Positions 11,731 through 40,923 of a stretch of DNA of 64,000 bases are shown here, one piece after another; position 1 is the stretch's first letter; the number at the start of each line of letters is the position of its first letter. The stretch covers positions 372,001-436,000 of the forward strand of contig NZ_JAXCLX010000003.1 of the NCBI RefSeq assembly GCF_034044635.1, given 5' to 3'. The stretch comes from Dongia rigui. GTDB lineage: Bacteria; Pseudomonadota; Alphaproteobacteria; Dongiales; Dongiaceae. The notes beneath the pieces are model-generated. The model did no database searches. It had not been told where the DNA came from and saw only the letters and a list, made by a program, of their open reading frames with translations. The position numbers and the translations under genes are program-made.

Positions 11731-11754
11731 CTTTCTCTCCCCTGTCGCCCGCGC

Positions 11755-14108: not shown

Positions 14109-14130
14109 TCCGGTGGCTCCCTGCATAAAT

Positions 14131-19532: not shown

Positions 19533-19637
19533 GAAATCTGTTCCAATCGTCAAACAATTAAGGCCGAAGAACGACCGCCAAACTCCGCGCAACATAGCGA
19601 GCGGAAGGACGGCTGGTAAGGCCCAATAGCGATTGGA

Positions 19638-20687
19638 TCAGTGGCGCGATATTGTCTGACGATAGTTGCGCGGGCTGACACCGGCCCAGCGCGTGAAGGC
19701 GCGGGTAAAGGCGGAAAGCTCGGAATAACCAAGGAGCAGCGCAATCTCGCTCAGCGGCAATTGGCTCTGCTGCAGATAATGCCGGGAAAGATCGAACCGC
19801 GTCGCTTCAACGGCCTCCCGGAACCCCAGACCGGCATCGTTCAAGGCACGCTGGACGGCGTTGGGGGACAACCGCAAGGCATGCGCGACCTGCTCCAAGG
19901 TAGGCGCCCCGTCGGCCAAGCGCAGGCGAACCGCACCGCGGACGCGGTCCACCAGGCTTTCCGGCCGTTCGCGCGAACCCAGCGACTGGAGGCAGGATTG
20001 CATCATGGCCAAGAGCTTTGGATCGCGCCCCGGCATCGGCCGCTTGAGCAGGGCTGCGTCAAAGACGATGGCGTTGGTGGCACAGCCGAAAAAGACCGGT
20101 GCCCCGAACGCCATCTCGTGCTGGCGCCAATCGGCCGGCCGCGGATGCTCGAACTGGATCTCGTCCGGCGCCCAATGCCGCCCGCAGCATTCGCGGATGA
20201 TGTTGGTGAACTGGCCCAGCGACAATTCCGCATCCTGGCGGCGCGCAATGATGGAGGGCGACAGGATCTGATATTCAAGCCGCATGCGGCCGGCCTCGTC
20301 CCGCTTCAACGCCATGATCGAGGAGCTTTGCTGATAGCGGAAGAGTCCGACCAGATTCTCCAATGCGCTGCCCAAGGTGGGCGACGACAGCGAGGCATAA
20401 CCCCACATGCCAAGATCGCGCGGGCTGAACTGCTGGCCGAACCAGAGGCCGAAATTGTCGTGGCGAGTCTGGCGCGCCGCTTCCTCGAACAGCGCGCAAT
20501 AGGCGGCGAGGCGCAGTTGCAAGGCGGGAGCGACGGTCATCTCAGGCGCCAAGCCGCAATTCCCGAAGATTGAATCGACGTCACCGCCCTGCGCATCAAT
20601 GAAATCGACGAGGCCGGACGCCGCCGCCGACAGGACGACCGGCGCCGTGTCATTTTGGGAAATGGGTCGACCGCTTGGATGGATCAT
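19638..20687 (-). CDS. AraC-family regulator, paralog 1 (Arabinose_bd + HTH_18)
   Basis: 349 aa from ATG 20687. N-terminal ~200-residue effector domain of the OruR/ArgR-like type (NFGLWFGQQFSPRDLGMWGY) and a C-terminal AraC HTH (LPLSEIALLLGYSELSAFTR, then FTRWAGVSPRNYR). It is divergent from the diol dehydratase operon. It is strikingly similar over its full length to the regulator at 30215-31270. Direct repeats suited to an AraC dimer begin 92 bp upstream of its start, and an identical distance is seen for the paralog. Confidence 0.9.
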   Translation of the reverse strand: MIHPSGRPISQNDTAPVVLSAAASGLVDFIDAQGGDVDSIFGNCGLAPEMTVAPALQLRLAAYCALFEEAARQTRHDNFGLWFGQQFSPRDLGMWGYASLSSPTLGSALENLVGLFRYQQSSSIMALKRDEAGRMRLEYQILSPSIIARRQDAELSLGQFTNIIRECCGRHWAPDEIQFEHPRPADWRQHEMAFGAPVFFGCATNAIVFDAALLKRPMPGRDPKLLAMMQSCLQSLGSRERPESLVDRVRGAVRLRLADGAPTLEQVAHALRLSPNAVQRALNDAGLGFREAVEATRFDLSRHYLQQSQLPLSEIALLLGYSELSAFTRAFTRWAGVSPRNYRQTISRH

Positions 20688-20780
20688 GCGACACCGTCCG
20701 CCATGGCCTTGGAAGATCATCGGAATGGGTCAGGAATGATGGCATGCCGCCGACCATGCTGCAAGGCAACAAGCCGTCGC

Positions 20781-20834
20781 TGTCAAACACATCCCTCTTT
20801 CGGTCAAGCCCTGCCGGCGTGACCTGATTAATCT
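20781..20834 (+). promoter_or_regulatory. Candidate AraC-activated promoter of the diol dehydratase operon
   Basis: TGTCAA (20781-20786), 16 nt, GTCAAG (20803-20808), 20 nt, TAATCT (20829-20834). The GTCAA half-sites repeat every 21 bp, two helical turns. The second would overlap the -35 position of a promoter whose -10 is TAATCT, the class II AraC activation layout. The same arrangement occurs at 25069 and 31364. No cobalamin riboswitch was recognised in this leader. Confidence 0.6.
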
Positions 20835-20892
20835 GCAGGCAAATTCGCCAAGTTCTGCCCAGGATTTCATCTGGGGAGCCGATCGGGAGACG

Positions 20893-23175
20893 ATGATGAA
20901 CGAGCCATCGCAGCCAGGCGCCAATCGCTGGCGCCGTTTCAGCGACTGGGACGAACGGCCCTTGCGGTTGGATCGCTTCGCCGTCGAGGACCCGGCCAAT
21001 GGCTTTGCCGCCTTCAACGGCGCCAAGGACCCCAAACCGGGCCTTGCGGTCGCGCAAGGCAAGGTCGCGGTGATGGACGGGGTTCCCGCCGCCGAATTCG
21101 ATATGATCGACACCTATATCGCGCGGCACCATCTGGATCTCGATCTCGCAGAAACCGCCATGGCGGTGCCGTCCCAGCAGATCGCCCGCATGCTGGTGGA
21201 TATCAGCGTGCCGCGCACGGACCTCACCCGCCTCGCCCATGGCCTGACACCCGCCAAACTCGCCGAAGTTGTGGCGCAACTCTCATCGATGGAACTGGCC
21301 TTCGCCTTTTCCAAGATGCGCACGAGGAAGACACCTGGCAATCAGGGCCATGTCACCAATGCCAAGGACGATCCGCTGCAGCTTGCGGCCGATGCGGCGA
21401 CCGCCGTGGCGTTCGGCTTCGACGAGGTCGAAACGACCATGCGCGTTGCCCGCAATGCCTGGTCCAATGCCTTGGCCTGCGCGGTCGGTGCCGCGGTCGG
21501 CCGCTGGGGGACCCTTTTTCAATGTTCCAGCGAAGAGGCCGAGGAACTGCAGATCGGCATGGCGGGCTTCACCTCCTATGCCGAGACGGTCTCGGTCTAT
21601 GGAACCGAGAAAGCCTTCACCGATGGCGACGACACGCCCTGGTCGAAGGCGTTCCTGGCCGCCGCCTATGCCAGCCGTGGCATCAAGATGCGCTGCACAT
21701 CGGGCGCTGCGTCGGAATTGCTGATGGGCTTTCATGAATCGAAATCGCTGCTTTATCTCGAGGCGCGGTGCCTGTGCCTGCAGCGGGCGATGGGTGTCCA
21801 GGGAACGCAGAATGGCGGCATCGATGGGGCACCGCTGGCCTCCACCATGCCGGGCGGCGTGCGTGAATTGCTGGCGGAGAACCTGATCGCCGCCTGGCTC
21901 GATCTCGAATGCGCCACTGGCAACGACGCGCGGCATTCGGAATCCGAGATCCGCGTTGGTGCCAAGATCCTGCCCTACCTCATCGCCGGGTCGGATTTCA
22001 TCTGTTCCGGCATGGGCTCGATCCTCGCTTACGACAATTCCTTCAACCCCTCATCCTTCAATGGCGAGGAGATGGAGGATTTCCTGGTCCTGCAGCGTGA
22101 TTTCGAAGCCGATGGCGGCCTGACCTCAGTGAATGAGAGCCGCGCCCTGGAACTGCGCCGCCGGGCAACGGATGCTTTGGGTGCGGTGCTCGAAGAACTG
22201 GGTCTCGGGCAGCCGACCGACGCCATGAAACGCAGCGTCGTCATCGCCTCCGGCTCCAACGACACCGACAGCTATCTGCCCCGCGACGTGGCCCTCATCA
22301 GCGAGGCGATCAAGGCGCGCGGCATCAATGTGCTCGACGTGATCAAGGCCCTGGCCAAGCGCGGCTTCAAGGACGAGGCGCAGAACCTTCTCAACGTCGT
22401 GCGCCTGCGCGTCTCCGGCGACTATTTGCAGACAGCCGCGGTGGTGCGGCAAGGCCATGTCATCAGCGCCGTCAATGACCCCAATGATTATGTCGGGCCG
22501 GGTTCCGGCTACCGCCTCAACGAACAGCGCCGTGCCGAACTCGCCGCCATTCGCGACGTGCTGACGCGCGAGGAAGTGCTGCGCACCGAGGCGACCTATG
22601 CCGGGCCGGAAACAAGGCGCATTCGCTATCATGCGCTGGGCGAGGCCAAATCGACCGGCCCGAAGAACGAGATCGTCATTGGCGTCAGCCCCGCTTTCGG
22701 CCTGAAGCTGTTCCGCACCTTGGCTGGCCATCCCCTTTCTGCGGTCCTCAAGGCACTGAGCGAGGGCATTGCCGAGAAGGGCGGCATTCCCCGCATTGTC
22801 CGTATGCGGCACACGGCTGATACCTCCTTCCTGGGATTGAGTGCCGCGCGCCTCGCCGGTTCCGGCATCGGGATCGGCATCCAGGCCAAGGGCACGGCCG
22901 TCATTCACCAGGCCGACCGCCTGCCGCACCACAATCTGGAACTCTTCTCCAATGCGCCGATCACCAGCCTCGATCACTATCGGCGCCTGGGGGAAAATGC
23001 CGCCACCTATGCCGCCGGTGAAATGCCGGAACCCGTCGTCGTGACCAATAATGGCGAGGCCATGGGTGCCCGCTTCCACGCGCAAGTGGCCCTCATCTAT
23101 GCCATCGAGACCTCGCTTACCCAAGACGGGGCCAAGCCCGAGGACATCAAGATCGATTTCCTGGAGACCGCGTAA
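20893..23175 (+). CDS. B12-dependent diol/glycerol dehydratase, fused large and medium subunits
   Basis: 760 aa. Residues ~1-550 match the PduC/DhaB large subunit (KTPGNQGHVTNAKDDPLQLA, SCSSEEAEELQIGM-like region, EARCLCLQRAMGVQGTQNGG, VSAVNDPNDYVGPGSGYR as ISAVNDPNDYVGPGSGYR). Residues ~570-760 match the PduD/DhaC medium subunit (EIVIGVSPAFGLKL, GSGIGIGIQAKGTAVIHQ, LPHHNLELFSNAPI). Normally these are separate genes. The enzyme removes water from a vicinal diol by radical chemistry with adenosylcobalamin in the cytosol. The small subunit follows with a TAATG overlap. No reactivating factor genes are in the window. ATG 20896 is an alternative start. Confidence 0.9.
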   Translation: MMNEPSQPGANRWRRFSDWDERPLRLDRFAVEDPANGFAAFNGAKDPKPGLAVAQGKVAVMDGVPAAEFDMIDTYIARHHLDLDLAETAMAVPSQQIARMLVDISVPRTDLTRLAHGLTPAKLAEVVAQLSSMELAFAFSKMRTRKTPGNQGHVTNAKDDPLQLAADAATAVAFGFDEVETTMRVARNAWSNALACAVGAAVGRWGTLFQCSSEEAEELQIGMAGFTSYAETVSVYGTEKAFTDGDDTPWSKAFLAAAYASRGIKMRCTSGAASELLMGFHESKSLLYLEARCLCLQRAMGVQGTQNGGIDGAPLASTMPGGVRELLAENLIAAWLDLECATGNDARHSESEIRVGAKILPYLIAGSDFICSGMGSILAYDNSFNPSSFNGEEMEDFLVLQRDFEADGGLTSVNESRALELRRRATDALGAVLEELGLGQPTDAMKRSVVIASGSNDTDSYLPRDVALISEAIKARGINVLDVIKALAKRGFKDEAQNLLNVVRLRVSGDYLQTAAVVRQGHVISAVNDPNDYVGPGSGYRLNEQRRAELAAIRDVLTREEVLRTEATYAGPETRRIRYHALGEAKSTGPKNEIVIGVSPAFGLKLFRTLAGHPLSAVLKALSEGIAEKGGIPRIVRMRHTADTSFLGLSAARLAGSGIGIGIQAKGTAVIHQADRLPHHNLELFSNAPITSLDHYRRLGENAATYAAGEMPEPVVVTNNGEAMGARFHAQVALIYAIETSLTQDGAKPEDIKIDFLETA

Positions 23176-23600
23176 TGGCCCGCATCGATACCGTCGCCGA
23201 CTACCCGCTGGCCGAAAACCGCCCGGGCCTAGTCAAAACCGCGCGCGGCAAGGCCCTCGCCGACCTGACACTGGATGCCGTGATGGCTGGCGAGGTGACG
23301 CTGGAGGATCTGCGCATCACGCCCCAGGCGTTGCAGGACCAGGCGCGTGTCGCAACGCTTGCCGGGCGGCCGACATTGGGTCGCAATTTCGAACGCGCCG
23401 CCGAACTGATCGCCGTGCCGCAGGATTACCTGCTCAAGGTCTACGAACTGCTGCGTCCCGGCCGGGCCAAGAGCAAGGCCGATCTCCTAGAGGCAGCAAA
23501 GATCTTGCGCGAGACCTATGCTGCCACAAAGATGGCTTCCTTCGTCGAAGAAGCGGCGGAGGTTTATGAAAAGCGCGGCCTATTCACCTTCAGGTTCTAA
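23175..23600 (+). CDS. Diol dehydratase small subunit (PduE/DhaE type)
   Basis: 141 aa, start overlapping the large-subunit stop by one base. Family signatures: DYPLAENRPGLVKTARGKAL, DLTLDAVMAGEVTLEDLRIT, NFERAAELIAVP and the ending FVEEAAEVYEKRG. It completes the heterotrimer formed with the fused large-medium protein. There is no extra amphipathic N-terminal encapsulation peptide, so this dehydratase may be cytosolic rather than microcompartment-housed. Confidence 0.92.
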   Translation: MARIDTVADYPLAENRPGLVKTARGKALADLTLDAVMAGEVTLEDLRITPQALQDQARVATLAGRPTLGRNFERAAELIAVPQDYLLKVYELLRPGRAKSKADLLEAAKILRETYAATKMASFVEEAAEVYEKRGLFTFRF

Positions 23601-23604
23601 ATCG

Positions 23605-24300
23605 ATGAGTTGGAAGACACGTAACCGTTCCTTCTATTACCAAGGGGCGCCGGAACCCGACGACCTTGCCTTCGCGCCCTCCGAGACGGCGCTGCTGGTG
23701 ATCGACGTGCAGAATACCTATCTGGCGCGGCCCGACCGCACAACACTCGATGCCGCAGGCCAAGCCGCTTATGACGCCTGGACACCCTTTCATGACCGGA
23801 TGAACAAGATCGTCATTCCGCGCACGGCCGATCTCCTCGCCTGGGCGCGGCGGAACGGCATCGAATGCCTCTTCGCCCGCATCGCCTGCCAAACCAAGGA
23901 TGGCCGCGATCGGTCCTTGAGCCAGAAAATGCCGGGCTGGAACAATCTGCTGCTGCCCAAGGACGAGCACGCCTCGCAGATCGTGCCACAGCTCGCCGCC
24001 AAAGGTGACGAAATCACGGTCACCAAGACGACGGACAGTGCGCTCACCGGCACCAATCTGCGCCTCATCCTCCATAATCTCGGCATCAAGAATGTCATCT
24101 GCGCCGGTATCTTCACCGATCAATGCGTCGCATCGACCGTGCGCAGCCTGGCCGACGAAAGCTTCCAGGTCGTCGTCGTGGAAGATTGCTGCGCCGCCGG
24201 CACCGATGCGCTGCACGAACAGGAACTGGCCATCATCAACATGATCTATTGCCATGTGATGCGGGCCGATGAACTCAAAGCCATGCTGAAGCTGTCATGA
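23605..24300 (+). CDS. Isochorismatase-like cysteine hydrolase
   Basis: 231 aa from ATG 23605. Catalytic triad of the family: Asp in LLVIDVQNTY, Lys in TVTKTTDSALTGTNL and Cys in AGIFTDQCVASTVRSL. Relatives hydrolyse amides (nicotinamide, N-carbamoylsarcosine, biuret) or isochorismate. It is the third gene of the diol dehydratase operon and overlaps the next gene by ATGA, so it probably acts on an amide or carbamoyl intermediate of the same pathway; the substrate is unknown. Confidence 0.87.
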   Translation: MSWKTRNRSFYYQGAPEPDDLAFAPSETALLVIDVQNTYLARPDRTTLDAAGQAAYDAWTPFHDRMNKIVIPRTADLLAWARRNGIECLFARIACQTKDGRDRSLSQKMPGWNNLLLPKDEHASQIVPQLAAKGDEITVTKTTDSALTGTNLRLILHNLGIKNVICAGIFTDQCVASTVRSLADESFQVVVVEDCCAAGTDALHEQELAIINMIYCHVMRADELKAMLKLS

Positions 24301-25025
24301 AGCGCATCCTCATCATCGTGCCGGAGCTGGTGGCCCCGCCGGGCATTCTCGGCCAGGCGCTGATCGCGCAGGGCGTCCACTACGACGCCGTCTTCCCGGT
24401 GGCGAAGTTCGCCAGCCATGCGCCGATGCAATATCCCGGCTTGCCCAGCAGCCCCGGCGATTATGCCGGACTCATCGTCATGGGCGGCCCGATGAGCGCC
24501 AAGGACGAACATGCCTTTCCGTTCCTGACCGAGACCATGGCCCTGATCCGCGCCTTTCACGCGGCGGACCGCCCGGTGCTGGGTGTTTGCCTGGGTGCCC
24601 AGATCATCGCCCATGCCTTTGGCGGCGAGATCTATCGCATGGGAAAGCTCGAATCCGGTTTCTACCAACTCGATCTGACACCCGAGGGCCAGGCTGATCC
24701 GCTGTTTCGCGACGTGACGCCGTCGATCACGACATTCGAGAACCATTACGAGGCCACCCGCAACACGCCGGGCGCGGTGCCGCTGGTGACCGGCGGTGCC
24801 TGCCCCATTCAGGCGTTCCGCATCGGGGCCAAGACCTATGGCGTGCAATTCCACATCGAGGTGACGATCGACATCATCCGCGACTGGCTGCGCGTCTTCG
24901 GGACCGACTTTGCGCGCGATGAGCCAAGACTGCTGACCGATCTCGACCAACAGTTCGCGCTACATTTTCCGGACTATGTGAGCACCTGCAATACGCTCAC
25001 GCGGAATTGGTTGGCGTTAACATAG
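24297..25025 (+). CDS. Class I glutamine amidotransferase-like protein
   Basis: 242 aa, ATGA overlap with the previous gene. It has the GATase1 nucleophile elbow GVCLGAQIIAHAFGG and the His-x-Glu of the triad in VQFHIEVT. It resembles the free-standing GMP-synthase-like amidotransferases. In catabolic operons such proteins often hydrolyse gamma-glutamyl bonds (as in PuuD- or AtdA2-type steps) rather than provide ammonia. As the last gene of the dehydratase operon it might release glutamate from a glutamylated amine; this is inference. Confidence 0.85.
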   Translation: MKRILIIVPELVAPPGILGQALIAQGVHYDAVFPVAKFASHAPMQYPGLPSSPGDYAGLIVMGGPMSAKDEHAFPFLTETMALIRAFHAADRPVLGVCLGAQIIAHAFGGEIYRMGKLESGFYQLDLTPEGQADPLFRDVTPSITTFENHYEATRNTPGAVPLVTGGACPIQAFRIGAKTYGVQFHIEVTIDIIRDWLRVFGTDFARDEPRLLTDLDQQFALHFPDYVSTCNTLTRNWLALT

Positions 25026-25068
25026 GCGACAACACAAGCTGGACTGCCACTTTAGTGGGCACCGGGCC

Positions 25069-25122
25069 TGTCAAGATTAACAGCCTAAATGTCAAGACCG
25101 GGTGGTGGGGGCACCCTATCGT
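25069..25122 (+). promoter_or_regulatory. Candidate AraC-activated promoter of the ABC importer operon
   Basis: TGTCAA (25069-25074), 16 nt, GTCAAG (25091-25096), 20 nt, TATCGT (25117-25122), the same spacing as at 20781 and 31364. It lies in the 240-bp gap between the amidotransferase and the binding-protein gene, giving the transporter its own regulated promoter. Confidence 0.58.
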
Positions 25123-25265
25123 CCTTAACGTGACCGATTTTCAGAACGACTTGCGGCAAGCAAGCAACGAAGGTGCGTCGTGCATCCGCTCGGCTAGAGC
25201 GATGCAGCTTGGTCAACAGGGAAGCGGTACCGGGCAAAAGCATCCGGACCAACGGAGAGGGACAG

Positions 25266-26429
25266 ATGAGCAGCTTTAAGCAATCACGTCGCAATTTCAT
25301 GCAGAATTCGGCCCTGATGGCCGCGGCTTTCGCCACGACCGGTACGCTGGGCCTGCGCCAGGCTTTTGCCGATCGCTCCAAGGAACTCAATATTCTGTGC
25401 TGGGAAGGCTACAACTCGGCCCAGGTCCTGGATCCGTTCCGTGAGTCGAGCGGCGCCACGGTAAAGGCGGAATCGCTCACCAACGACCCCACCATGATCA
25501 ACCGCCTGCGCGCTGGTGAAACCAATGTCTGGGATCTGATCAACGTCAACAATCCCTGGGCGCGCAAGATCATGTTCCCGGAAAAGCTCATCCAGCCGCT
25601 CGACCGCGCCAAGATGGAGCCCTATTTCGCGAAGATGGCGCCGGACTTCAAGCCGCCCTACAAATGGGCGATGGATGACAGCGGCGAGCAGCTGATCGGC
25701 ATGGCGCAGCGTTACGGCCCCTATAGCTTCGTCGTCAACACCGACAAGGTCAGCCGCGCCACGGCCGAGGATCAGGGTTGGGATCTCTGGAACGACGCCA
25801 AGAATGACAAGAAATACGGCGTCCTGGAATCCGACGATTGGAACGTCTTCAACATCTGCTGCATCGCCGGTTTCGATCCCTTCCGCGAGCACACGCCGGA
25901 AGAGATCGCGAAATTCACCGAAACCGCCAAGCGCGTCTTCAAGGGCGCCAAGGTGGTGGGCGACATCGCCACCATGAACCAGGCACTGGTTTCGGGCGAG
26001 ATCGACTTCCACATGACCGGCGGCACCTATTCCGCCTCGCCGGCGCGCGCCGATGGCAACGCCAATATCCGCGCCATCACCCCGAACAAGGGCCCGATGG
26101 CCGGCGGCAAGGGCGGCATTTCCTGGATCGAAATCACCTCGGTGGTCAACAATCCGGATGTCTCGCCGCTCGCCGTGCAGTTCCTCGAATATGTGCAGGA
26201 TCCCAAGGTTGCCCACACGGTGGCCTTCGCCGAGGGCACCTTCAACCCGGTGGCCCAGATGGGCAATCCGGAATGCTTCAGCCTCTTCACCAAGGAAGAG
26301 CTGGATGCGATCCAGTATGACAGCCTCGAGGAAGAGATGGCGCGGTCGGTTGAATATGACATCGTGCCGGATTACGACAAGCTCCTCGACATCATGACCG
26401 CCGCGAAGCGCGAAGCTTCCGGCGGCTGA
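25266..26429 (+). CDS. Spermidine/putrescine-type ABC substrate-binding protein with Tat signal
   Basis: 387 aa from ATG 25266 (GGAGAGGG upstream). Tat signal SRRNFMQNSALMAAAFATTG with cleavage expected after QAFA. The mature domain is PotD-like: LNILCWEGYNSAQVLDPF, DLINVNNPW, and a periplasmic two-lobe architecture. It should capture an amine or related cation in the periplasm and pass it to the permeases encoded downstream. A 13-bp stem-loop follows the gene. Shared promoter architecture with the dehydratase and microcompartment operons suggests it imports their substrate. Confidence 0.9.
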   Translation: MSSFKQSRRNFMQNSALMAAAFATTGTLGLRQAFADRSKELNILCWEGYNSAQVLDPFRESSGATVKAESLTNDPTMINRLRAGETNVWDLINVNNPWARKIMFPEKLIQPLDRAKMEPYFAKMAPDFKPPYKWAMDDSGEQLIGMAQRYGPYSFVVNTDKVSRATAEDQGWDLWNDAKNDKKYGVLESDDWNVFNICCIAGFDPFREHTPEEIAKFTETAKRVFKGAKVVGDIATMNQALVSGEIDFHMTGGTYSASPARADGNANIRAITPNKGPMAGGKGGISWIEITSVVNNPDVSPLAVQFLEYVQDPKVAHTVAFAEGTFNPVAQMGNPECFSLFTKEELDAIQYDSLEEEMARSVEYDIVPDYDKLLDIMTAAKREASGG

Positions 26430-26453
26430 TCCAGGCGCGTCCACATCAGGACA

Positions 26454-26489
26454 AGGATCGCCCGGCATTCATGCGCGCCGGGCGATCCT
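26454..26489 (+). terminator. Intra-operon stem-loop after the binding-protein gene
   Basis: Perfect 13-bp stem: AGGATCGCCCGGC (26454-26466) with GCCGGGCGATCCT (26477-26489), 10-nt loop and only a weak T-rich tail. It sits between the binding-protein gene and the ATPase gene, the usual place for an mRNA-stabilising or attenuating hairpin that keeps binding protein in excess over transporter. Confidence 0.75.
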
Positions 26490-26535
26490 GTCTTATAGAC
26501 CATCCATTGCCATACGATCCGGATACCAAGGGACC

Positions 26536-27603
26536 ATGAACGGCCGATCGCCCATTCTCCAATTGCGTGACCTCACCAAGACGTTCGGCAACTTCACCGC
26601 CGTCAAAGGCATCAGCCTCGATATCTCGGAAGGCGAATTCTTCACCATCGTCGGCCCGTCCGGCAGCGGCAAGACGACCCTGCTGCGCATGCTGACGGGG
26701 ATGGAAGGGGCCACCAGCGGCGACATCCTGCTGCGCGGGAGCCGCATCAACGATCTGCCCGCCAACAAGCGGCCAACCTGCATGGTGTTCCAGTCGCTGG
26801 CCCTGTTCCCGCATCGCACCGTCGGCCAAAACATCGAGTTCTCGCAGAAGATCAAGGGCGTGGAGCCAGAGAAGCGGAAGGCACGCGCCCTGCAGCTGAT
26901 GGCGCAGCTGCGTCTCCCTGAGAACTACTACGACAAGAGTGTGACCAAATGCTCCGGCGGCGAGCGGCAGCGCGTGGCCCTGGCCCGCGCCCTGGCCTAT
27001 GACCCCGACATTCTCTTCTTCGACGAGCCCTTGTCGGCGATCGATTACAAGCTCCGGAAAACGCTCGAGAAGGAACTCAAAGACATCCACCGCGAGACCG
27101 GCAAGACTTTCATCTACATCACCCACAGCCTGGAAGAGGCGATGGTGATGAGCGACCGCATCGGCGTCATGCGCAGCGGCCAGCTGGTGCAGGTCGGTTC
27201 GCCGCAGCAGATCTATTCGGCGCCGGAAACCAAGTTCGTGTCCGAATTCATCGGCGACGTGAACGTCATCGGGGTGCAGGCGACGGGCGCCAACACCGTT
27301 CATGCCGCAGAATTCGGCGTCGATCTCGTGACACAGCCGGTGCCGGCAGGATTCAAGGAGGGGCATCTGGTGGTGCGTCCCGAATCTCTCCGTTTCCTCA
27401 GCAGCCGCAGCGAGGCGCAGAATTGCTTGGAAGGTCGCGTCTACAATGAATATGTGCTGGGTTCGCGCATCCAATACCAGGTGCGCGTCGGCGAACATGT
27501 CTTCATCGTCGAGAAATTGCGCCAGCAGGCCTTCGGCGGTAGCCTCGACGATCAGGTCCTCATCGGCTGGGATGCCAAGGACAGCATCCTGGTGACGGAT
27601 TGA
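26536..27603 (+). CDS. ABC transporter ATPase, PotA type
   Basis: 355 aa. Walker A GPSGSGKTT (~36-44), Q-loop MVFQSLALFPH, signature CSGGERQRVALARAL, Walker B ILFFDEPLSAID and switch His in THSLEEAM. A C-terminal TOBE-type domain (~270-355) is typical of spermidine/putrescine and iron importers. It powers uptake through the two following permeases. Its stop overlaps an alternative TTG start of the next gene. Confidence 0.92.
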   Translation: MNGRSPILQLRDLTKTFGNFTAVKGISLDISEGEFFTIVGPSGSGKTTLLRMLTGMEGATSGDILLRGSRINDLPANKRPTCMVFQSLALFPHRTVGQNIEFSQKIKGVEPEKRKARALQLMAQLRLPENYYDKSVTKCSGGERQRVALARALAYDPDILFFDEPLSAIDYKLRKTLEKELKDIHRETGKTFIYITHSLEEAMVMSDRIGVMRSGQLVQVGSPQQIYSAPETKFVSEFIGDVNVIGVQATGANTVHAAEFGVDLVTQPVPAGFKEGHLVVRPESLRFLSSRSEAQNCLEGRVYNEYVLGSRIQYQVRVGEHVFIVEKLRQQAFGGSLDDQVLIGWDAKDSILVTD

Positions 27604-27614
27604 TTGGCAGCGCC

Positions 27615-28472
27615 ATGACCACTCTTGCCAAAATCTTCGCTCCCGGGACCAGGCATGCGGTACCGCTCATCCTCTTCCTGCTGGTTGGTTTTGCGGCGCC
27701 GCTGCTGGCCGTCATCGGCTTCAGCTTCATTCCGGCCCGCACCTTCGAATTGTGGCAAAGCTGGAGTCTCGACAATTATATCGAGATCTTCAATTCGACC
27801 AGCTACCTCTCCTTCCTGTGGTCGCTGGGCCTTGCCGCCGTCACGGTGCTGATCCTCGCCGTCATCTGCTATCCGATCGCCTACGGCCTGGCACGCATCT
27901 TTGGCAAGTATTCGACGCTGGTGACACTGCTCTTCACCATTCCGCTCTTCGTTTCCGAAAACGTCCGCCTCTATGGCTGGGTGTTGTTCTTCATCAAGAA
28001 CGGTGTCTTGCTCGGCACGCTCAAGGCCTGGTTCGGCATCGAACCCGACAGCTGGCTCTTCACCAGCGGCATCATCGTTTTCGGCATGGTCTATGTTTAT
28101 CTCCCCTTCATGCTGTTCCCAATGACGCTCGGCGTCTCCATGGTGCCGGACCAGACACGCGATGCAGCTTTCGATCTCGGCGCCACGCGCTGGCAGGTGT
28201 TCAAGGAAGTCGAATTGCCGCTCTCCATGCCAGGAATCATGATCGGCTTCCTGCTCTCCTTCGTGCTGGCCGTGGGGGCCATTGCCGAGGCGAAGGTATT
28301 GGGCGGTCAGCAGATCATCCCGATCAGCCATGATATCGAGATCGCCTTCACCTATGCCCAGAACTGGCCGCTGGGGGCGGCGTTGGCCGTGCTGCTGATG
28401 CTGGTGGTGGGGACGCTCGTCCTCTTCGTCCTGCGTCGCTTCGACCTCGACGCCATTCTGGGGCGGAGGTAA
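27615..28472 (+). CDS. ABC transporter permease, PotB type
   Basis: 285 aa from ATG 27615; TTG 27600, overlapping the ATPase stop, is an alternative. Six membrane segments and the cytoplasmic coupling motif DAAFDLGATRWQVFKEVELP (EAA loop). It pairs with the following permease to form the membrane channel of the spermidine-type importer. Confidence 0.9.
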   Translation: MTTLAKIFAPGTRHAVPLILFLLVGFAAPLLAVIGFSFIPARTFELWQSWSLDNYIEIFNSTSYLSFLWSLGLAAVTVLILAVICYPIAYGLARIFGKYSTLVTLLFTIPLFVSENVRLYGWVLFFIKNGVLLGTLKAWFGIEPDSWLFTSGIIVFGMVYVYLPFMLFPMTLGVSMVPDQTRDAAFDLGATRWQVFKEVELPLSMPGIMIGFLLSFVLAVGAIAEAKVLGGQQIIPISHDIEIAFTYAQNWPLGAALAVLLMLVVGTLVLFVLRRFDLDAILGRR

Positions 28473-28475
28473 GCG

Positions 28476-29294
28476 ATGGACGGCTTGACACCGCGCTGGC
28501 GCACCTCGCTCATCTGGGCCTGGACGGCCGCCATCGTCGTCTTCATGTATCTGCCGGGCCTGTGCCTGCTCCTGGCCTCGCTGACGTCCAGCCGCTATTT
28601 CATCTTCCCCATCACCAAATGGGGCCTCGATTGGTGGCAGAAGACATTCTCCTCGCTGGAAATCCACCAGCTTTTCAAGACGTCGATCACCATTGCGCTC
28701 TGTGTCACAGTCATCGCCGTGACCATCGCCCTCTTCGGCGCGCTCGCCTTTGCGCGCTATGACTGGAAGGGGCGCTCGATCTATCAAAAGATCGTGCTGC
28801 TGCCGATCTTCTTCCCGCAATCGGTTCTGGGCCTTGCCTTGCTGCTGTGGTTCAACGCGCTGGGGCTCACCATGTCCTGGCAGACGGCGGTCTTTGCGCA
28901 TCTCGTTTGGATCATTCCGGTCTGCACATTGGTCATTTCGATCCAGGTCTATTCCTTCGACCCGGCCTTGGAAGAGGCCGCCTTCGATCTTGGCGCCACA
29001 CGCTGGCAGGTGTTCAAGGAAGTGACCTTGCCCGTTCTCTTCCCTGGCATTTTCTCCGGCGCCCTCTTCGCCTTCCTGCTTAGCTGGGGCAATTTCCCGC
29101 TGTCGCTCTATACGACCGGCGCCGACACGACGATCCCGGAATATCTTTATGCCAAGATGGTCGCCGGCTACACGCCGGGCGTGCCGGTCCTCGGCACGGT
29201 GTCGACGGTGGGAGCAGCCGCCCTGCTCCTCATCGGCTACGCCCTGATCCTCGTCTTGCGCCGGCGCCGCGCCAGCGCACCGTCGGAAAACTGA
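28476..29294 (+). CDS. ABC transporter permease, PotC type
   Basis: 272 aa, GGAGGTAAGCG directly before ATG 28476, three bases after the previous stop codon. Six membrane segments and the EAA coupling loop EEAAFDLGATRWQVFKEVTL, nearly the same as in its partner. It is the second half of the importer channel. Confidence 0.9.
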   Translation: MDGLTPRWRTSLIWAWTAAIVVFMYLPGLCLLLASLTSSRYFIFPITKWGLDWWQKTFSSLEIHQLFKTSITIALCVTVIAVTIALFGALAFARYDWKGRSIYQKIVLLPIFFPQSVLGLALLLWFNALGLTMSWQTAVFAHLVWIIPVCTLVISIQVYSFDPALEEAAFDLGATRWQVFKEVTLPVLFPGIFSGALFAFLLSWGNFPLSLYTTGADTTIPEYLYAKMVAGYTPGVPVLGTVSTVGAAALLLIGYALILVLRRRRASAPSEN

Positions 29295-29326
29295 TCATCC
29301 AAGGAAAATAGCGGAGGCAACGCGCC

Positions 29327-30109
29327 ATGTTGGGGCAATCGATCAAGGGGAAATCCGTCATCGTCACCGGCGCCAGCAAGGGCATCGGCAAAGGCATCGC
29401 GCGGGTCTTCGCGCAGCATGGCGCGAAAGTCCTGGTGGTCGGGCGCGATCTTAAACAGGCCGAAGCGACGGCCAAGGAATTCGAGCAGGCGGGCGGGACT
29501 GCAAGCGGCTTTTCGGCGGATGTCACCAAGCTCGGCGACATGGAAAAGATGGCAAAGACCGCGGTCGAGCGTTACGGCACCGTCGATGTGCTCTGCGCCA
29601 ATGCCGGCGTCTTCCCGCAGGTGAAGATGGAAGATATGTCGCCCGAGACCTGGGACGAGGTGATGGCAACGAACCTCAAAGGCACCTTCCTGTCGGTCAA
29701 GGCCTGCATCCCATATTTGAAGAAATCCGGCGAGGGCCGCATTGTCATCACCTCCTCCATCACCGGGCCGGTCACCGGCTTCCCCGGCTGGACCCATTAC
29801 GGCGCCACCAAGGCCGGCCAATTGGGCTTCATGCGCACCGCCTGCATGGAACTGGCGAAATACGGCATCACGGTCAATGCGGTGCTGCCCGGCAATATCA
29901 AGACCGAGGGCCTCATCGAGCTCGGCGATGGCTATATGAAGGGCATGGCGGCGGCCGTGCCGCTCGGCAAGCTGGGCGAGGTCGAGGACATCGGCCATGC
30001 CGCCCTCTTCTTCGCCTCGCGCGAGGCAGGCTATATCACCGGGCAGACCATCATCGTCGATGGCGGCCAGATCCTGCCCGAAAGCCAGGACGCGCTGTCG
30101 CAGATGTGA
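29327..30109 (+). CDS. Short-chain dehydrogenase, candidate amino-alcohol dehydrogenase
   Basis: 260 aa, GGAGG before the start. SDR features: TGASKGIGKGIA cofactor motif (residues ~13-24), NAG at ~90, catalytic Ser in VITSSITG, Tyr-x3-Lys in THYGATKAG, and a C-terminal TGQTIIVDGGQ. It belongs to the classical FabG-like group. Mycobacterial RMM loci encode an SDR reported to oxidise 1-amino-2-propanol, and this gene lies in the importer operon next to the RMM-type operon, so the same role is proposed. It could be another alcohol dehydrogenase. Confidence 0.85.
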   Translation: MLGQSIKGKSVIVTGASKGIGKGIARVFAQHGAKVLVVGRDLKQAEATAKEFEQAGGTASGFSADVTKLGDMEKMAKTAVERYGTVDVLCANAGVFPQVKMEDMSPETWDEVMATNLKGTFLSVKACIPYLKKSGEGRIVITSSITGPVTGFPGWTHYGATKAGQLGFMRTACMELAKYGITVNAVLPGNIKTEGLIELGDGYMKGMAAAVPLGKLGEVEDIGHAALFFASREAGYITGQTIIVDGGQILPESQDALSQM

Positions 30110-30120
30110 TGCATCTCTAC

Positions 30121-30199
30121 CGTCATGCCCGGGCTTGACCCGGGCATCCAGTCTATCCAAGGCATCAGTGGATCCCCGGGTCCTCGCCCGGGGATGACG
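30121..30199. repeat. Intergenic palindromic element, copy B
   Basis: Begins CGTCATGCCCGGGCTTGACC and ends CCCCGGGTCCTCGCCCGGGG plus ATGACGG. Almost the same as copy A at 17821. It lies between the convergent SDR and AraC genes and could end transcription on both strands. Confidence 0.82.
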
Positions 30200-30214
30200 G
30201 CATGTTCGGGAAAT

Positions 30215-31270
30215 TCAGTGCGCGAGCTTGCGATAGGCGCGGGGGCTCACGCTGGTCCAGCGGGTGAAGGCGCGGGTAAAGGCCGATAGCTCGGAATAGC
30301 CCAGCAGCAACGCGATCTCGGTCAGCGGCAATTGCCGCTGGTCGAGATACATGCGTGCCAAGGATTGCCGCGTGGTTTCGACCGCGTCCTTATAGGTCAG
30401 GCCCGCGACTGATAATTCGCGTTGAATCGCCGCCGCCGGCACGCGCAAGGACATGGCAATCTGATCGAGGCTGGGATAGCCGCCGGGCAGGCTGACGCGG
30501 ATCGCCGTCTTCACGCGGTCCACCAGCCCGTCATCGCCGGGGCGGTGCGAGCCTAAGGATTCGAGGCATGTCTGCATCATGGTGAGGAGTTGCAGGTCAC
30601 GCCCAGGCATCGAGCGCTGCAGCAGTTCGGGGCGGAACAGCAGGGCATTGGTCGGCTGGCTGAAATAGACCGGCGCATCGAAGGCCGCTTCGTGTTCTTT
30701 CCAGAATTCGGGCCGCGGATGCTCGAAATGCACCTCGACCGGCGCCCATTTCGACCCGCAGCAATCACGGATCACATTGGTGAACATGCCGAGCGACAGT
30801 TCCGCATCCTGGCGCCGCTCGACGATTTCCGAGGAATAGATCTGGTATTCGAGACGCATCAGTCCATCGGCACCCTTCACCAGCTGCATCGCCGAGGATT
30901 CCTGGTGGAAATGAAACAGCCGCACCAGATTATCGAGAGCCGATCCCAGATTTGGTGAGGAGATCGCTGCATAGCCCCACATGCCGAGATCGCGCGGCTG
31001 GAACTGCTGGCCGAAATGGAGGCCGAAATTCCCCGGGCTGGTCTTGTCGCCGGCGATTTGGCGCGCCGCCTGCTCGAACAGGCGGCAATAGGCGGCAAGC
31101 TTCAGCTTCAAGGTCGGGGCACCCGCCATATCTGGGGCGATACCCGAATTGCCGAAAATGGAATCGACATCGCCGCCACGGGCCGAGATGAAATCCACCA
31201 CGCCCGTCGCCGCCGCCGCCAGCACGACAGGCGCGTCATTTCTGTGGGTGGTCGTGGCGGTCGTCATCAT
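30215..31270 (-). CDS. AraC-family regulator, paralog 2, divergent from the microcompartment operon
   Basis: 351 aa from ATG 31270; the reading back to 31630 covers the promoter region and is not used. Effector domain NFGLHFGQQFQPRDLGMWGY and HTH LPLTEIALLLGYSELSAFTR closely match the AraC protein at 19638-20687. Most residues agree by eye across both domains. It is divergent from the RMM-type operon, and the direct repeat begins 92 bp upstream of its start, exactly as for paralog 1. It probably activates the operon when pathway substrate is present. Confidence 0.9.
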   Translation of the reverse strand: MMTTATTTHRNDAPVVLAAAATGVVDFISARGGDVDSIFGNSGIAPDMAGAPTLKLKLAAYCRLFEQAARQIAGDKTSPGNFGLHFGQQFQPRDLGMWGYAAISSPNLGSALDNLVRLFHFHQESSAMQLVKGADGLMRLEYQIYSSEIVERRQDAELSLGMFTNVIRDCCGSKWAPVEVHFEHPRPEFWKEHEAAFDAPVYFSQPTNALLFRPELLQRSMPGRDLQLLTMMQTCLESLGSHRPGDDGLVDRVKTAIRVSLPGGYPSLDQIAMSLRVPAAAIQRELSVAGLTYKDAVETTRQSLARMYLDQRQLPLTEIALLLGYSELSAFTRAFTRWTSVSPRAYRKLAH

Positions 31271-31363
31271 CGTCCCCAGCCAAAGTTCACGAACCAGACT
31301 GCAGATAAGGCGCGATGATGGCACGGGGCCGGAGCTCGCTTCAAGCGGGCAAAGCTGATCAGC

Positions 31364-31417
31364 TGTCAAGATCACGCCATCACGGGTCAAGCGACCGTGA
31401 CCGGCCCGTTCTAGCCT
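31364..31417 (+). promoter_or_regulatory. Candidate AraC-activated promoter of the microcompartment operon
   Basis: TGTCAA (31364-31369), 16 nt, GTCAAG (31386-31391), 20 nt, TAGCCT (31412-31417). Same half-sites and spacings as at 20781 and 25069. The 21-bp period and the half-site overlapping the -35 position fit an AraC class II promoter. The predicted leader is about 100 nt. Confidence 0.58.
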
Positions 31418-31523: not shown

Positions 31524-32522
31524 ATGAGCGGTATGCTCACGACGGAACAAATGTTGCGCGCGATCGACGAATTGGCGGCCGCGGCCCTGCCGCTTTGGGG
31601 GCTGGACGGCGCCGATTTGCAGCTCATCAACCATTCCGAAAACTGGACCTATCGCGTGCTGCCGAAAGGGGCCGCGCGGCCCGTCATCCTGCGCGTGCAC
31701 CGCGACGGCTATCACAGCACCGACGGCATCCGCAGCGAATTGGCCTGGATGCGTGCCTTGCAGGCCGAAGCGCAGGTGAAGACACCGCAGGCCATTCCGG
31801 GCAAGGACGGTGCCGACATCCAGACCGTGACGCATCCGGCCTTGAGCTCACCGCGCAACTGCGTCCTTTTCGAATTCATCGACGGCATCGAGCCGCCACA
31901 GGACAACCTCATCCCGCCTTTCCGCCAATTGGGGGAAGTAACCGCACGCTGCCACAATCACAGCGAAACTTGGACGCGGCCGCCTTATTTCGAACGCCTG
32001 TCCTGGGATTTCGAGCATTCGCTTGGCAAGACCGCCAATTGGGGCGCCTGGCAGGCGGGACCGGATTGCACGCCGGAGCGGGCCAAGCTACTGCAGCGCG
32101 CGGTCGACCTGATGGAAAGGCGCCTGAAGGCCTTCGGCCACGCGCGCAACCGCTACGGCCTCATCCACGCCGATTTCCGCCTCGCCAATCTGCTGGTCCA
32201 CAACGGCGATGTGCGCGTCATCGACTTCGACGATTGCGGCCTGGGCTGGTTCCTCTATGACGGCGCCACGGCGGTGAGTTTCTTTGAAGACCGCGCCGAT
32301 GTGCCGGAACTGATGGAAGCCTGGAAGGAAGGCTATCGCCGCCAGCGGGAGCTTCCGAAGGAAGACGACCACGAGATGTGGACCTTCATCCTGCTGCGGC
32401 GCATGACGCTGTTCGCCTGGATGGGCAGCCACGCCGAAACCGACCTCGCCCGCACGGAAGGCCCTGGCTACAGCACAGGTACCTGCGACCTCGCCGAACG
32501 CTATTTGAGCCAATACAGCTGA
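31524..32522 (+). CDS. APH-family kinase, candidate amino-alcohol kinase
   Basis: 332 aa. Aminoglycoside-phosphotransferase/choline-kinase fold: ATP-binding NWTYRVLPKG...VILRVHRDGY, catalytic loop GLIHADFRLANLLV (Brenner motif H-x-D-x4-N) and metal-binding VIDFDDCGLGWFLYD. First gene of the microcompartment operon. In RMM-type loci the APH kinase is thought to phosphorylate 1-amino-2-propanol so that the next enzyme can eliminate phosphate and ammonia. It carries no obvious encapsulation peptide. Confidence 0.88.
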   Translation: MSGMLTTEQMLRAIDELAAAALPLWGLDGADLQLINHSENWTYRVLPKGAARPVILRVHRDGYHSTDGIRSELAWMRALQAEAQVKTPQAIPGKDGADIQTVTHPALSSPRNCVLFEFIDGIEPPQDNLIPPFRQLGEVTARCHNHSETWTRPPYFERLSWDFEHSLGKTANWGAWQAGPDCTPERAKLLQRAVDLMERRLKAFGHARNRYGLIHADFRLANLLVHNGDVRVIDFDDCGLGWFLYDGATAVSFFEDRADVPELMEAWKEGYRRQRELPKEDDHEMWTFILLRRMTLFAWMGSHAETDLARTEGPGYSTGTCDLAERYLSQYS

Positions 32523-32546
32523 ACCCGATCGGGTCAGGAGTTGAAC

Positions 32547-33836
32547 ATGGTCGACCACACGCAAAGCCCGGAAAAGCGCGAGTTCATCGCGAAATCCAAG
32601 CAGTTCTGGAATCCCGGCAAGACCCAGGCCTGGCAGGATATGGGCGTCGATCTCGTCATCGACCGGCGCGAAGGTTATCTGCTGTGGGACATGGACGGGC
32701 GTCGCCTCATCGACCTGCATCTCAACGGCGGCACCTACAATATCGGCCATCGCCATCCCGAACTCATTGAAGTGCTGAACCGCGGCATGCAGCGCTTCGA
32801 TATGGGCAATCACCATTTCCCGAATATGGGCCGCACGGCGTTGGCTGAACGCCTGGCGCGCATCTGCGGCGGCGACATGCACTACACCATGTATGCCTCG
32901 GGTGGCGCCGAGGCGATCGACATCGCCTTGAAGACCGCGCGCCATGCGACGCAGCGGCGCAAGATCGTCTCCATCGTCAATGCCTATCATGGCCACACTG
33001 GCCTTGCTGTCGCCGCCGGTGCCGATCGCTTCAAGAAGATCTTTCTGTCGGACCAGCCCGACGATTTCGTCCATGTGCCGTTCAATGATCTCAATGCGAT
33101 GGAAGATGCCTTGAAGGGCAAGGACGTCGCCTGCCTGATCATGGAGACGATTCCGGCCACTTACGGCTTCCCCATGCCCCTTCCCGGCTATCTCGCCGAG
33201 GTGAAGAAGCTGTGCGAGCGCTATGGTGCCCTCTATGTTGCCGACGAGGTGCAGACCGGTCTGATGCGCTGCGGCGAGATGTGGGGCTACCAGCGCTATG
33301 GCATCCAGCCGGACATCATGGTGACCGGCAAGGGCATCTCCGGCGGCATGTACCCGATCGCCTGCGTGGTCGTGCGCGAACCCTATGCCGGCTGGCTGAA
33401 ACAGGACGGCTTTGCCCATATGTCGACCATGGGTGGCGCCGAACTCGGCTGCCTGGTCGCCATGAAGACGCTGGAGATCCTCGAGCGGCCGATGATGAAG
33501 CCGATGGTGAATTACATCGCCGAGACTTTCCGCAACGGCCTTCACGAGATCATGCGGCTTTATCCCAGCTTCTTCGTCGGCATCCGCCAATGCGGGCTGG
33601 TGATGGGCCTGGAATTCGATTTCCCCGAAGGCGCCAAGCCGGTGATGAAGCATCTCTACGAGAACGGCGTCTGGGCGATCTTCTCGACCCTCGACCCCCG
33701 GGTGCTGCAGTTCAAGCCAGGCGTGCTGATGACGGCCGATCTCTGCGCCGAGGTGCTGGAGCGCGTCGAGCGGGCGGTGGGCTTGGCTTATGCCGAATGC
33801 ATGGGTTCCGGCAAGCGCAGCACGCGTGCGGCGTGA
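32547..33836 (+). CDS. Class III aminotransferase-family enzyme, candidate amino-alcohol phosphate phospholyase
   Basis: 429 aa from ATG 32547 (CAGGAG six nt upstream). PLP fold type I: YASGGAEAIDIALKTAR, NAYHGHTG (ring stacking), ADEVQTGLMR (Asp to the pyridine N) and Schiff-base Lys in MVTGKGISGGMYP. Some class III members are phospholyases for ethanolamine phosphate or hydroxylysine phosphate. Between the kinase and the acylating dehydrogenase it should turn phosphorylated 1-amino-2-propanol into propionaldehyde, ammonia and phosphate. Confidence 0.87.
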   Translation: MVDHTQSPEKREFIAKSKQFWNPGKTQAWQDMGVDLVIDRREGYLLWDMDGRRLIDLHLNGGTYNIGHRHPELIEVLNRGMQRFDMGNHHFPNMGRTALAERLARICGGDMHYTMYASGGAEAIDIALKTARHATQRRKIVSIVNAYHGHTGLAVAAGADRFKKIFLSDQPDDFVHVPFNDLNAMEDALKGKDVACLIMETIPATYGFPMPLPGYLAEVKKLCERYGALYVADEVQTGLMRCGEMWGYQRYGIQPDIMVTGKGISGGMYPIACVVVREPYAGWLKQDGFAHMSTMGGAELGCLVAMKTLEILERPMMKPMVNYIAETFRNGLHEIMRLYPSFFVGIRQCGLVMGLEFDFPEGAKPVMKHLYENGVWAIFSTLDPRVLQFKPGVLMTADLCAEVLERVERAVGLAYAECMGSGKRSTRAA

Positions 33837-33851
33837 AGGAGTTGACGTAAG

Positions 33852-35447: not shown

Positions 35448-35462
35448 GGAAGAACTGAACCC

Positions 35463-36062
35463 ATGGCCGATTTACGTTCCTTCATCTTCATCGACCAGCT
35501 GCAGCCGCAGACGCTCTGCTATATGGCGAGCGGCATGCGTGGCCGCCTGCCGCGCACGCAGATGGCGGCCCAGATCATCGAAGTGGCCCCCGGCCTCGAT
35601 ATTGAAGCTCTGACCGACATCGCCTTGAAACATGCCGAGGTCAGCGGCGGCATGCTCGTGGTCGAGCGGCAATTCGGCTATCTCGAATTTCACTCGCGCT
35701 CGACCGCCGCGGTGAAATCAGCAGCCGATGCCGTGCTGGACGAGCTTGATGCCAGGCGGGAGCAGGCGATGAAGCCGCAGATCCTCGCCTCCAAGATCGT
35801 GACCCGGATTGATAACGGCCATGCCTTCCTGATCAACCGCAACAAATCCGGGTCCATGATCCTGCCCGGCGAATCGCTCTTCGTGCTGGAAATGCAGCCC
35901 GCGTCCTACGCCATCCTGGCGACCAACGAGGCGGAGAAGACCGCCGACATCAAGGTAATCGATTATCGCATGTTCGGTGCCACCGGCCGCGTCTACCTCT
36001 CCGGCGAGGAATCCAATGTGCGCATGGGCGCCGAAGCGGCCCTGGCCGCGCTGGAAGGATGA
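35463..36062 (+). CDS. Tandem-domain microcompartment shell protein (BMC-T), first copy
   Basis: 199 aa, two BMC-like folds: residues ~3-95 (IFIDQLQPQTLCYMASG, AAQIIEVAPGLDIEALTDIA) and ~105-195 (AFLINRNKSGSMILPGESLF, VLEMQPASYAILATNEAEK). BMC-T proteins trimerise into pseudo-hexameric tiles, often with a larger or gated pore. It is similar along its length to the second BMC-T at 37197-37832 (shared IIEVAP, ERQ-G-LE-H, ATNEAEK-like stretches). Its stop overlaps the next start as ATGA. Confidence 0.88.
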   Translation: MADLRSFIFIDQLQPQTLCYMASGMRGRLPRTQMAAQIIEVAPGLDIEALTDIALKHAEVSGGMLVVERQFGYLEFHSRSTAAVKSAADAVLDELDARREQAMKPQILASKIVTRIDNGHAFLINRNKSGSMILPGESLFVLEMQPASYAILATNEAEKTADIKVIDYRMFGATGRVYLSGEESNVRMGAEAALAALEG

Positions 36063-36744: not shown

Positions 36745-36775
36745 CAACCATCTGATCTGAAGCAAGGAGAGAACC

Positions 36776-40742: not shown

Positions 40743-40923
40743 GGAGAACTCCTGGGCGTCAAATCGTGATGCCTGATGGTGCAAATCTTGTGGCCCGCCC
40801 ATCCGATGGAAACGGTCGCGCGACTGTCGCTTTGTTGCGAGTATGGTTAATCCTCAAGTTACTGATATATAAATATTATTCCAGAAATCACTTGTGGGGA
40901 CGCAAAGCGTCGCGCCATCAAAT

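Follow-up and report, generated by a model that had tools for sequence, protein, structure and literature searches.

A promoter element shared by a diol dehydratase operon, an importer operon and a microcompartment operon of Dongia rigui: a likely AraC regulon

The window analysed here, a stretch of 64,000 nucleotides from the alphaproteobacterium Dongia rigui (contig NZ_JAXCLX010000003.1, positions 372,001 to 436,000), carries three separate plus-strand units. Unit 1 (20893-25025) encodes a B12-dependent diol dehydratase and two hydrolases, unit 2 (25266-30109) an ATP-binding cassette (ABC) importer and a short-chain dehydrogenase/reductase (SDR), and unit 3 (31524-37057) a kinase, a class-III pyridoxal phosphate (PLP) enzyme, an aldehyde dehydrogenase and a bacterial microcompartment (BMC) shell. 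The question raised by this locus is whether an identical element ahead of all three units makes them one regulon, and whether that regulon serves one pathway. The three sites are very likely promoters of a single AraC regulon, as a sequence-only reading of the window had proposed and as the rarity of the element, its conservation and its co-occurrence with an AraC gene now support. With good confidence, they may further be regarded as activator-binding promoters of a QhpR-type regulon serving one amino-alcohol or amino-diol route. No description of this regulon was found in the literature searched.

The promoter element and its rarity

The sequence TGTCAA-N16-GTCAAG occurs exactly at 20781-20808, 25069-25096 and 31364-31391, always on the plus strand, and these are the sole exact matches in the window. 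Exactly 20 nt past each GTCAAG stands a -10-like TAnnnT hexamer, namely TAATCT (20829-20834), TATCGT (25117-25122) and TAGCCT (31412-31417). The complete elements (20781-20834, 25069-25122 and 31364-31417, plus strand) are the predicted promoters of the diol dehydratase operon, of the importer and SDR operon, and of the kinase, PLP-enzyme and microcompartment operon, respectively. GTCAA half-sites are spaced 21 bp at all three promoters, and with a 17-nt spacer the -35 hexamer would cover the final three bases of the downstream half-site, a class II geometry. The sequence-only reading had claimed this identical architecture, the three hexamers, the 21-bp repeat and the overlap of the second half-site with the -35; the architecture proved correct to the base, hexamers and repeat were found as described, and the overlap agrees with the sequence geometry. 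E. coli AraC at araI1-araI2 likewise meets two direct half-sites at a 21-bp distance, of which the proximal overlaps the -35, whereas the half-site sequence is different.

With up to two mismatches allowed, the window holds nine matches to the half-site pair, compared with a mean of 2.61 in 100 shuffles, the largest of which gave 8 (none reached 9). Across the genome (4,658,268 bases, 10 contigs), GTCAA-N16-GTCAA-N20..22-TAnnnT is matched four times and its reversed control not once, and three of the four matches are the sites of the window; the background, for which a genome scan had been proposed as a check, is thus nearly absent.

The fourth match (L111:8449-8501, or G000:C1:2092448-2092500) lies on a different contig, between a second APH kinase gene, whose product matches the unit 3 kinase at 242 of 331 alignment columns (73% identity), and an operon for a proline-iminopeptidase-family (alpha/beta-) hydrolase and a peptide ABC importer. 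A homologue of this hydrolase is present in 10 of the 11 relatives' genomes searched; it is preceded by an exact site in G001 and a one-mismatch site in G002, both sister genomes, and by a two-mismatch version in G037. In G003 a BMC-T-like shell gene (L174:2566-3120) directly precedes the hydrolase orthologue, which is an independent hint that the fourth operon belongs with the compartment.

Conservation in relatives and the link with AraC genes

Relatives' loci were the best 80 of 171 confirmed stretches from a contig scan with the fused dehydratase as query; they are not phylogenetically independent of one another, and many come from draft or metagenome assemblies. From them, 307 regions of up to about 360 bp were taken upstream of homologues (at least 45% identity; permease 30%) of the dehydratase, importer, kinase, PLP-enzyme, aldehyde-dehydrogenase, SDR, permease and isochorismatase genes, leaving out regions of 150 bp or less. 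At a gap of 16 these regions contain 38 exact, 16 one-mismatch and 11 two-mismatch sites, against no exact and 0-2 one-mismatch sites in all at gaps of 14, 15, 17, 18, 5, 6, 26 and 27, and with the reversed and complemented patterns no site appears at 0 or 1 mismatch. Broken down by gene (exact/one/two mismatches), the sites number 14/6/1 among 32 regions before the importer's substrate-binding protein, 13/3/0 among 38 before the kinase, 7/4/5 among 79 before the dehydratase, 2/1/0 among 28 before the PLP enzyme, 2/0/0 among 10 before the aldehyde dehydrogenase, 0/2/4 among 23 before the permease and 0/0/1 among 45 before the isochorismatase-fold hydrolase, with none in the 52 SDR regions.

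The strongest single result is the -10 offset, because the -10 played no part in site selection. Among 57 sites chosen by half-sites alone, three of them from the window, 48 have TAnnnT at offset 20 (34 sites) or 21 (14 sites), and every other offset from 10 to 28 accounts for two at most. The full pattern was also sought in 44 relatives' genomes, those of 44 of the 80 loci, where 65 matches fall in 24 genomes, compared with 10 for the reversed control. Thirty of the 65 were fetched, and 27 of these lie directly upstream of a regulon-gene homologue, two at the fourth operon; of the remainder, L127 falls at the end of a contig, the kinase being the gene expected there from synteny, and L126 and L132 are without a regulon gene. 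Phylogenetic footprinting, suggested earlier as a check, thus finds the architecture kept at orthologous promoters; Dongia mobilis, for example, keeps three of the sites.

Two AraC-family genes on the minus strand accompany the sites. AraC1 (19638-20720; PF12625 and HTH_18) is divergent from the dehydratase operon and AraC2 (30215-31267) from the microcompartment operon; their paralogy, already noted from the bare sequence, holds, with 218 of 340 alignment columns identical and a nearly identical second helix-turn-helix. AraC2 is the best match of the AraC gene in most AraC-bearing relatives. Both proteins, at 339.9 and 294.5 bits respectively, exceed the equivalog cut-off of 250 bits of the NCBIfam QhpR model (NF049968). 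QhpR regulates quinohemoprotein amine dehydrogenase genes; the target genes here differ, and no such dehydrogenase turned up among the Pfam-scanned window proteins (to 50.8 kb), the genome not having been searched for one. In the propanediol utilization (PDU) system, too, an AraC-family regulator, PocR, accompanies a B12 diol dehydratase and a shell operon, according to the cited passages of PMC4207490. The window's regulators are, however, of QhpR type (AraC1 scores 37.8 bits on the PocR model, cut-off 500), and the window further differs from PDU in its fused dehydratase subunits, its added kinase and PLP enzyme, and in that no reactivase gene was found.

Motif and regulator gene go together across the relatives. 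Sixty-six of the 80 loci extend 9 kb or more past the dehydratase start, and the other 14 were left out of this comparison. The motif at 0-1 mismatch is present in all 21 of the 66 that have an AraC1/AraC2 homologue (at least 40% identity) and in 3 of the 45 that do not. The three exceptions do have an AraC gene in the genome (70, 46 and 45% identity), located by coordinates 1.9-3.2 kb past the fetched flank and adjoined by the motif at 0 or 1 mismatch, and six further genomes, all motif-less, gave no AraC1/AraC2 match above 28% identity at E 1e-20. Given that AraC1 and AraC2 are paralogous and each divergent from a site, the sites could in principle be inherited copies of one duplicated block of AraC gene and divergent promoter, free of functional constraint. 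Such an origin is very improbable, because half-sites, spacing and -10 are retained in relatives and the spacers between them vary freely; site 2, moreover, has no adjoining AraC gene.

A number of results weigh against a single regulon of this kind, and they also delimit it. When the half-sites are scanned for without the -10 and up to one mismatch is allowed, the genome count is at background (26 matches, 4 exact and 22 with one mismatch, against 22 for the reversed control); what is informative is therefore the combination of exact half-sites with the -10, and loose scanning calls for caution. This is the one finding that would suit a chance match of a short pattern, an origin refuted by the genome scan once the -10 is included (4 against 0), by the gap, scramble and reversed controls, by the relatives' genomes and by the -10 offsets, to the point that we give it practically no credence. 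Twenty of the 44 relatives' genomes have no match to the full pattern, and 7 of the 10 hydrolase-bearing genomes have no site upstream of the hydrolase at up to two mismatches. The association of motif and AraC gene (Fisher p 2e-14, uncorrected for relatedness) overstates the independence of loci that are kin. Among the 79 regions taken upstream of the dehydratase itself, 11 have the site at 0-1 mismatch; in the 24 AraC-bearing loci (the above 21 together with L033, L082 and L086) this region has a site with no mismatch in 6, with one in 3 and with two in 4 (L039, L041, L052, L072), and none in 11. Finally, at 42 of the 66 dehydratase loci neither the motif nor an AraC gene was detected.

The dehydratase promoter is therefore less conserved than those of the importer and the kinase, and its patchiness indicates that the three-promoter form belongs to the Dongia group and near neighbours, where the nine AraC-bearing loci with dehydratase sites at 0-1 mismatch are found, and not to all relatives. 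In the 11 AraC-bearing loci with no dehydratase site, the motif sits instead at an importer, permease, kinase, PLP-enzyme or aldehyde-dehydrogenase promoter. The dehydratase of L071, L082, L084 and L086 lies behind other cluster genes on the same strand and may be read together with them. The 42 loci without motif or AraC gene include the kinase in 18, the PLP enzyme in 14 and a shell gene in 7, so other regulators must serve there, and the regulon is one lineage's solution.

The compartment and the place of the dehydratase

Unit 3 opens with an APH-fold kinase (31524-32522; PF01636; nearest solved chain 6ef6), predicted to act on amino alcohols, followed by the class-III PLP enzyme (32541-33836; PF00202), a predicted phospholyase or aminotransferase, and by an acylating-type aldehyde dehydrogenase (33852-35447; PF00171; AdhE/EutE-type models below cut-offs) with a C-terminal helix resembling an encapsulation peptide. 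The genes that follow encode a BMC-T shell trimer (35463-36062; PF00936), a 143-aa microcompartment-associated protein (36059-36490; no Pfam match, weak TIGR02536 below cut-off), a BMC-P pentamer (36487-36744; PF03319) and a BMC-H hexamer (36776-37057; PF00936). The shell resembles that of the Rhodococcus and Mycobacterium microcompartment (RMM): the best solved relatives of BMC-T and BMC-P are MSM0275 (5l39) and MSM0273 (5l37), both of the M. smegmatis RMM, and for BMC-H, MSM0272 (5l38) comes second after a tandem fusion protein. Unit 2 comprises an importer substrate-binding protein (25266-26429; PF13416, weak PotD similarity), an ATPase with a TOBE domain (26536-27603; PF00005, PF08402), two permeases (27600-28472 and 28476-29294; both PF00528) and the SDR (29327-30109), whose best solved relatives are 3rih and 3pk0, then 6ci8/6ci9. 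We take 6ef6 and 6ci8/6ci9 to be the RMM amino-propanol kinase and dehydrogenase. The unit had earlier been called an amine-type importer; it is an ABC importer, and the amine label finds little in the PotD model (43.1 bits, cut-off 582).

In the cited passages of Axen 2014 (PMC4207490), RMM2 loci share shell genes, phosphotransferase, aminotransferase, aldehyde dehydrogenase, SDR and a separately transcribed diol dehydratase. The window has the APH phosphotransferase, class-III aminotransferase, aldehyde dehydrogenase and SDR, and also the diol dehydratase that makes the difference from RMM1. In place of the GntR-family regulator and amino acid permease of RMM loci, both called ancillary there, this alphaproteobacterial cluster has AraC regulators and an ABC importer; in some relatives an AA_permease-like protein replaces the importer. 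By its gene content, the window cluster together with the dehydratase thus belongs to RMM2 as defined by Axen 2014, differing from those described in these passages also in that the dehydratase is on the same strand and is tied to the pathway by a common promoter element. The Aut/AAUM amino-2-propanol compartment of Mycobacterium and Rhodococcus provides close solved relatives of the window's kinase, SDR and shell proteins; unlike the window, its gene list in the cited passages of PMC6620236 has a GntR regulator and no diol dehydratase.

Whether RMM2 compartments use their diol dehydratase was left open by Axen 2014, whose preferred reading for actinobacterial RMM2 loci, in the passages cited (PMC4207490), is that they do not, a bifunctional compartment being the alternative; the shared promoter element bears directly on this question. 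Applied to the window, the preferred reading of that paper would make the dehydratase operon a co-regulated hitchhiker of an amino-alcohol compartment, a view compatible with the separate transcription units, with the absence of a visible targeting sequence on the dehydratase and with the 11 of 24 AraC-bearing loci whose dehydratase promoter is without a site. Set against it are the same motif before the dehydratase here and in the Dongia group, an active-site change peculiar to the dehydratase clade (see below), and clustering: the regulon genes recur together in relatives, and in more distant loci the dehydratase stays with kinase, PLP enzyme and SDR. On an Agrobacterium plasmid (L113:8823-19072) a sugar-type ABC importer, a dehydratase of the same active-site type, an SDR, a phosphotransferase and a class-III aminotransferase stand in a row, with a GntR gene adjoining; the 26 kb shown contain no shell gene. 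The element common to the dehydratase, importer and shell operons is evidence of joint production in the Dongia group. Because of the common regulon, the recurrent clustering and the plasmid stretch, the comparison argues that the dehydratase is part of the pathway, here at least, and the hitchhiker explanation appears improbable. The original idea of one pathway is supported by the same clustering in relatives and on the plasmid.

Judged by eye, the aldehyde dehydrogenase of the window ends C-terminally in a linker followed by a helix of amphipathic appearance, as do all 12 closed-frame relatives (the frame of L032 ran off its locus and is outside this count). A further point on the opposing side is that no N-terminal or linker targeting helix was seen, again by eye, on the dehydratase; the comparison enzyme from a Klebsiella plasmid is also without one, which makes the comparison a weak one. 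With such a helix on the one enzyme and none seen on the other, the aldehyde dehydrogenase is the likely compartment cargo.

If the three units do form one regulon, we infer binding, induction, effector, substrates and order of steps as follows. In the presence of an amine-bearing substrate or intermediate, AraC1 and/or AraC2 would bind the two TGTCAA half-sites, which lie two helical turns apart; with the downstream half-site overlapping the -35, the activator would recruit RNA polymerase, class II fashion, to the TAnnnT -10. The importer and SDR, the fused dehydratase and its two hydrolases, and the kinase, PLP enzyme, acylating aldehyde dehydrogenase and RMM2-type shell would be switched on jointly, as might, in D. 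rigui itself and two close relatives, the alpha/beta-hydrolase and peptide importer elsewhere in the genome. Uptake and deacylation would then feed the formation of a short-chain aldehyde both by the kinase and PLP enzyme and by the dehydratase, and the encapsulated aldehyde dehydrogenase would convert it to acyl-CoA in the last step.

The dehydratase active site and the missing reactivase

Unit 1 begins with the dehydratase, a fusion of large and medium subunits of 760 aa (20893-23175; PF02286 and PF02288), followed by its small subunit (23175-23600; PF02287), on which no N-terminal targeting extension was seen, an isochorismatase-fold hydrolase (23518-24300; PF00857; its true start is probably further downstream) and a class-I glutamine-amidotransferase-like hydrolase (24297-25025; PF00117). 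Large, medium and small subunit domains are all present, and Q141, H143, E170, E221, Q296, D335 and S362 are all kept; we take these to be the catalytic residues, whose roles are in part described in the cited passages of PMC7674605. The pocket is altered at position 301, where the window protein and all 80 relatives have Asp instead of Ser301. The numbering is that of the Klebsiella enzyme, fitted to an alignment with 9vi2. Ser301 is found in 9vi2 and in five control enzymes, from Klebsiella, Cetobacterium, Halomarina and two distant alphaproteobacterial fused enzymes. At position 336, where Gln336 is expected, the window protein has Ala, as do 64 of the 81 proteins in all (Thr in 12, Cys in 4, Ser in 1); the two distant alphaproteobacterial Ser301 enzymes have Ala336 as well, so this change is not special to the Asp301 clade. 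Both pocket types can occur in one genome: G384 (same genus) has two fused dehydratases (loci L147 and L155), one Ser301 and one Asp301, and no reactivase match.

In glycerol dehydratases, as described in the cited passages of PMC7674605, glycerol can turn its C3-OH towards Ser301, and the substitutions Ser301Ala and Gln336Ala alter activity and inactivation. An Asp at position 301 would suit an ammonium group, and an amine-bearing diol is therefore suggested as the substrate; the change at least narrows the substrate question. It also bears on a reading by which one regulon serves two parallel routes, the dehydratase turning 1,2-propanediol into propanal and the kinase and PLP enzyme producing propanal from 1-amino-2-propanol, with a common encapsulated aldehyde dehydrogenase. 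Two such routes fit the named enzyme types, and the bifunctional compartment named as an alternative in the cited passages of Axen 2014 (PMC4207490) is of this kind; Paracoccus yeei TT13, described with RMM2 in the cited passages of PMC8156839, grows on propylene glycol (1,2-propanediol; see also PMC5773746). However, Asp301 of the window protein and its 80 relatives would face the methyl group of propanediol, where 9vi2 and all five controls have Ser, and P. yeei decides nothing, because its genome authors inferred a lactate route, with no pdu operon (PMC5773746). Two parallel routes nevertheless remain a serious contender, to which we assign somewhat less than an even chance.

A reactivase (PF08841) was found neither in the D. 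rigui genome nor in any of the relatives' genomes (0 of 44, some of them drafts), and the same search recovered it in 3 of 3 positive control records. Reactivases are proposed, in the cited passages of PMC7674605, to act through a beta-subunit swap, which a covalent alpha-beta fusion would hinder. A class-wide survey of 385 genomes, in which at most five candidates per genome were scored, found PF02286 in 9 and PF08841, weakly, in a disjoint 9 (one over the cut-off); it yielded no case of a full-length, unfused dehydratase accompanied by a reactivase, and the survey adds little. Genomes with a fused dehydratase in which no reactivase was found may shed light on how enzymes of this kind avoid suicide inactivation.

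It is tempting to hypothesize that alphaproteobacterial RMM2-type loci encode an amino-diol compartment pathway, in which a fused, reactivase-free B12 dehydratase uses Asp301 to hold the ammonium of an amino-1,2-diol (e.g., 3-amino-1,2-propanediol), and one QhpR-like AraC regulon ties together import, deacylation, dehydration, kinase/PLP chemistry and the shell. Fusion and absence of a reactivase would then be one adaptation, since the fusion would block the subunit swap. In this full form the proposal is tentative, and we consider it possible but rather doubtful.

Other genes of the window

Several further gene groups surround the three units. At 4447-10098 (minus strand), genes for a ferredoxin reductase, a glutamine-synthetase-like ligase, a cytochrome P450 and a PLP decarboxylase stand in a row, an arrangement reminiscent of gamma-glutamylation routes for amines. 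The minus-strand genes at 10876-14126, for an FAH hydrolase, a LigB-type ring-cleavage dioxygenase and an aldehyde dehydrogenase, look like a meta-cleavage aromatic pathway. A thiamine pyrophosphate enzyme is encoded at 17904-19595 (minus strand) and scores 783 bits on the NCBIfam model for 5-guanidino-2-oxopentanoate decarboxylase (cut-off 500). Beyond unit 3, at 37945-42007, a GMC oxidoreductase and a Rieske oxygenase (minus strand) lie beside a plus-strand gene for a third AraC-family protein, which has a DJ-1/PfpI domain. Further on, a histone-deacetylase-family protein (46821-48047, minus strand), possibly an acetylpolyamine amidohydrolase, adjoins a branched-chain-type ABC importer.

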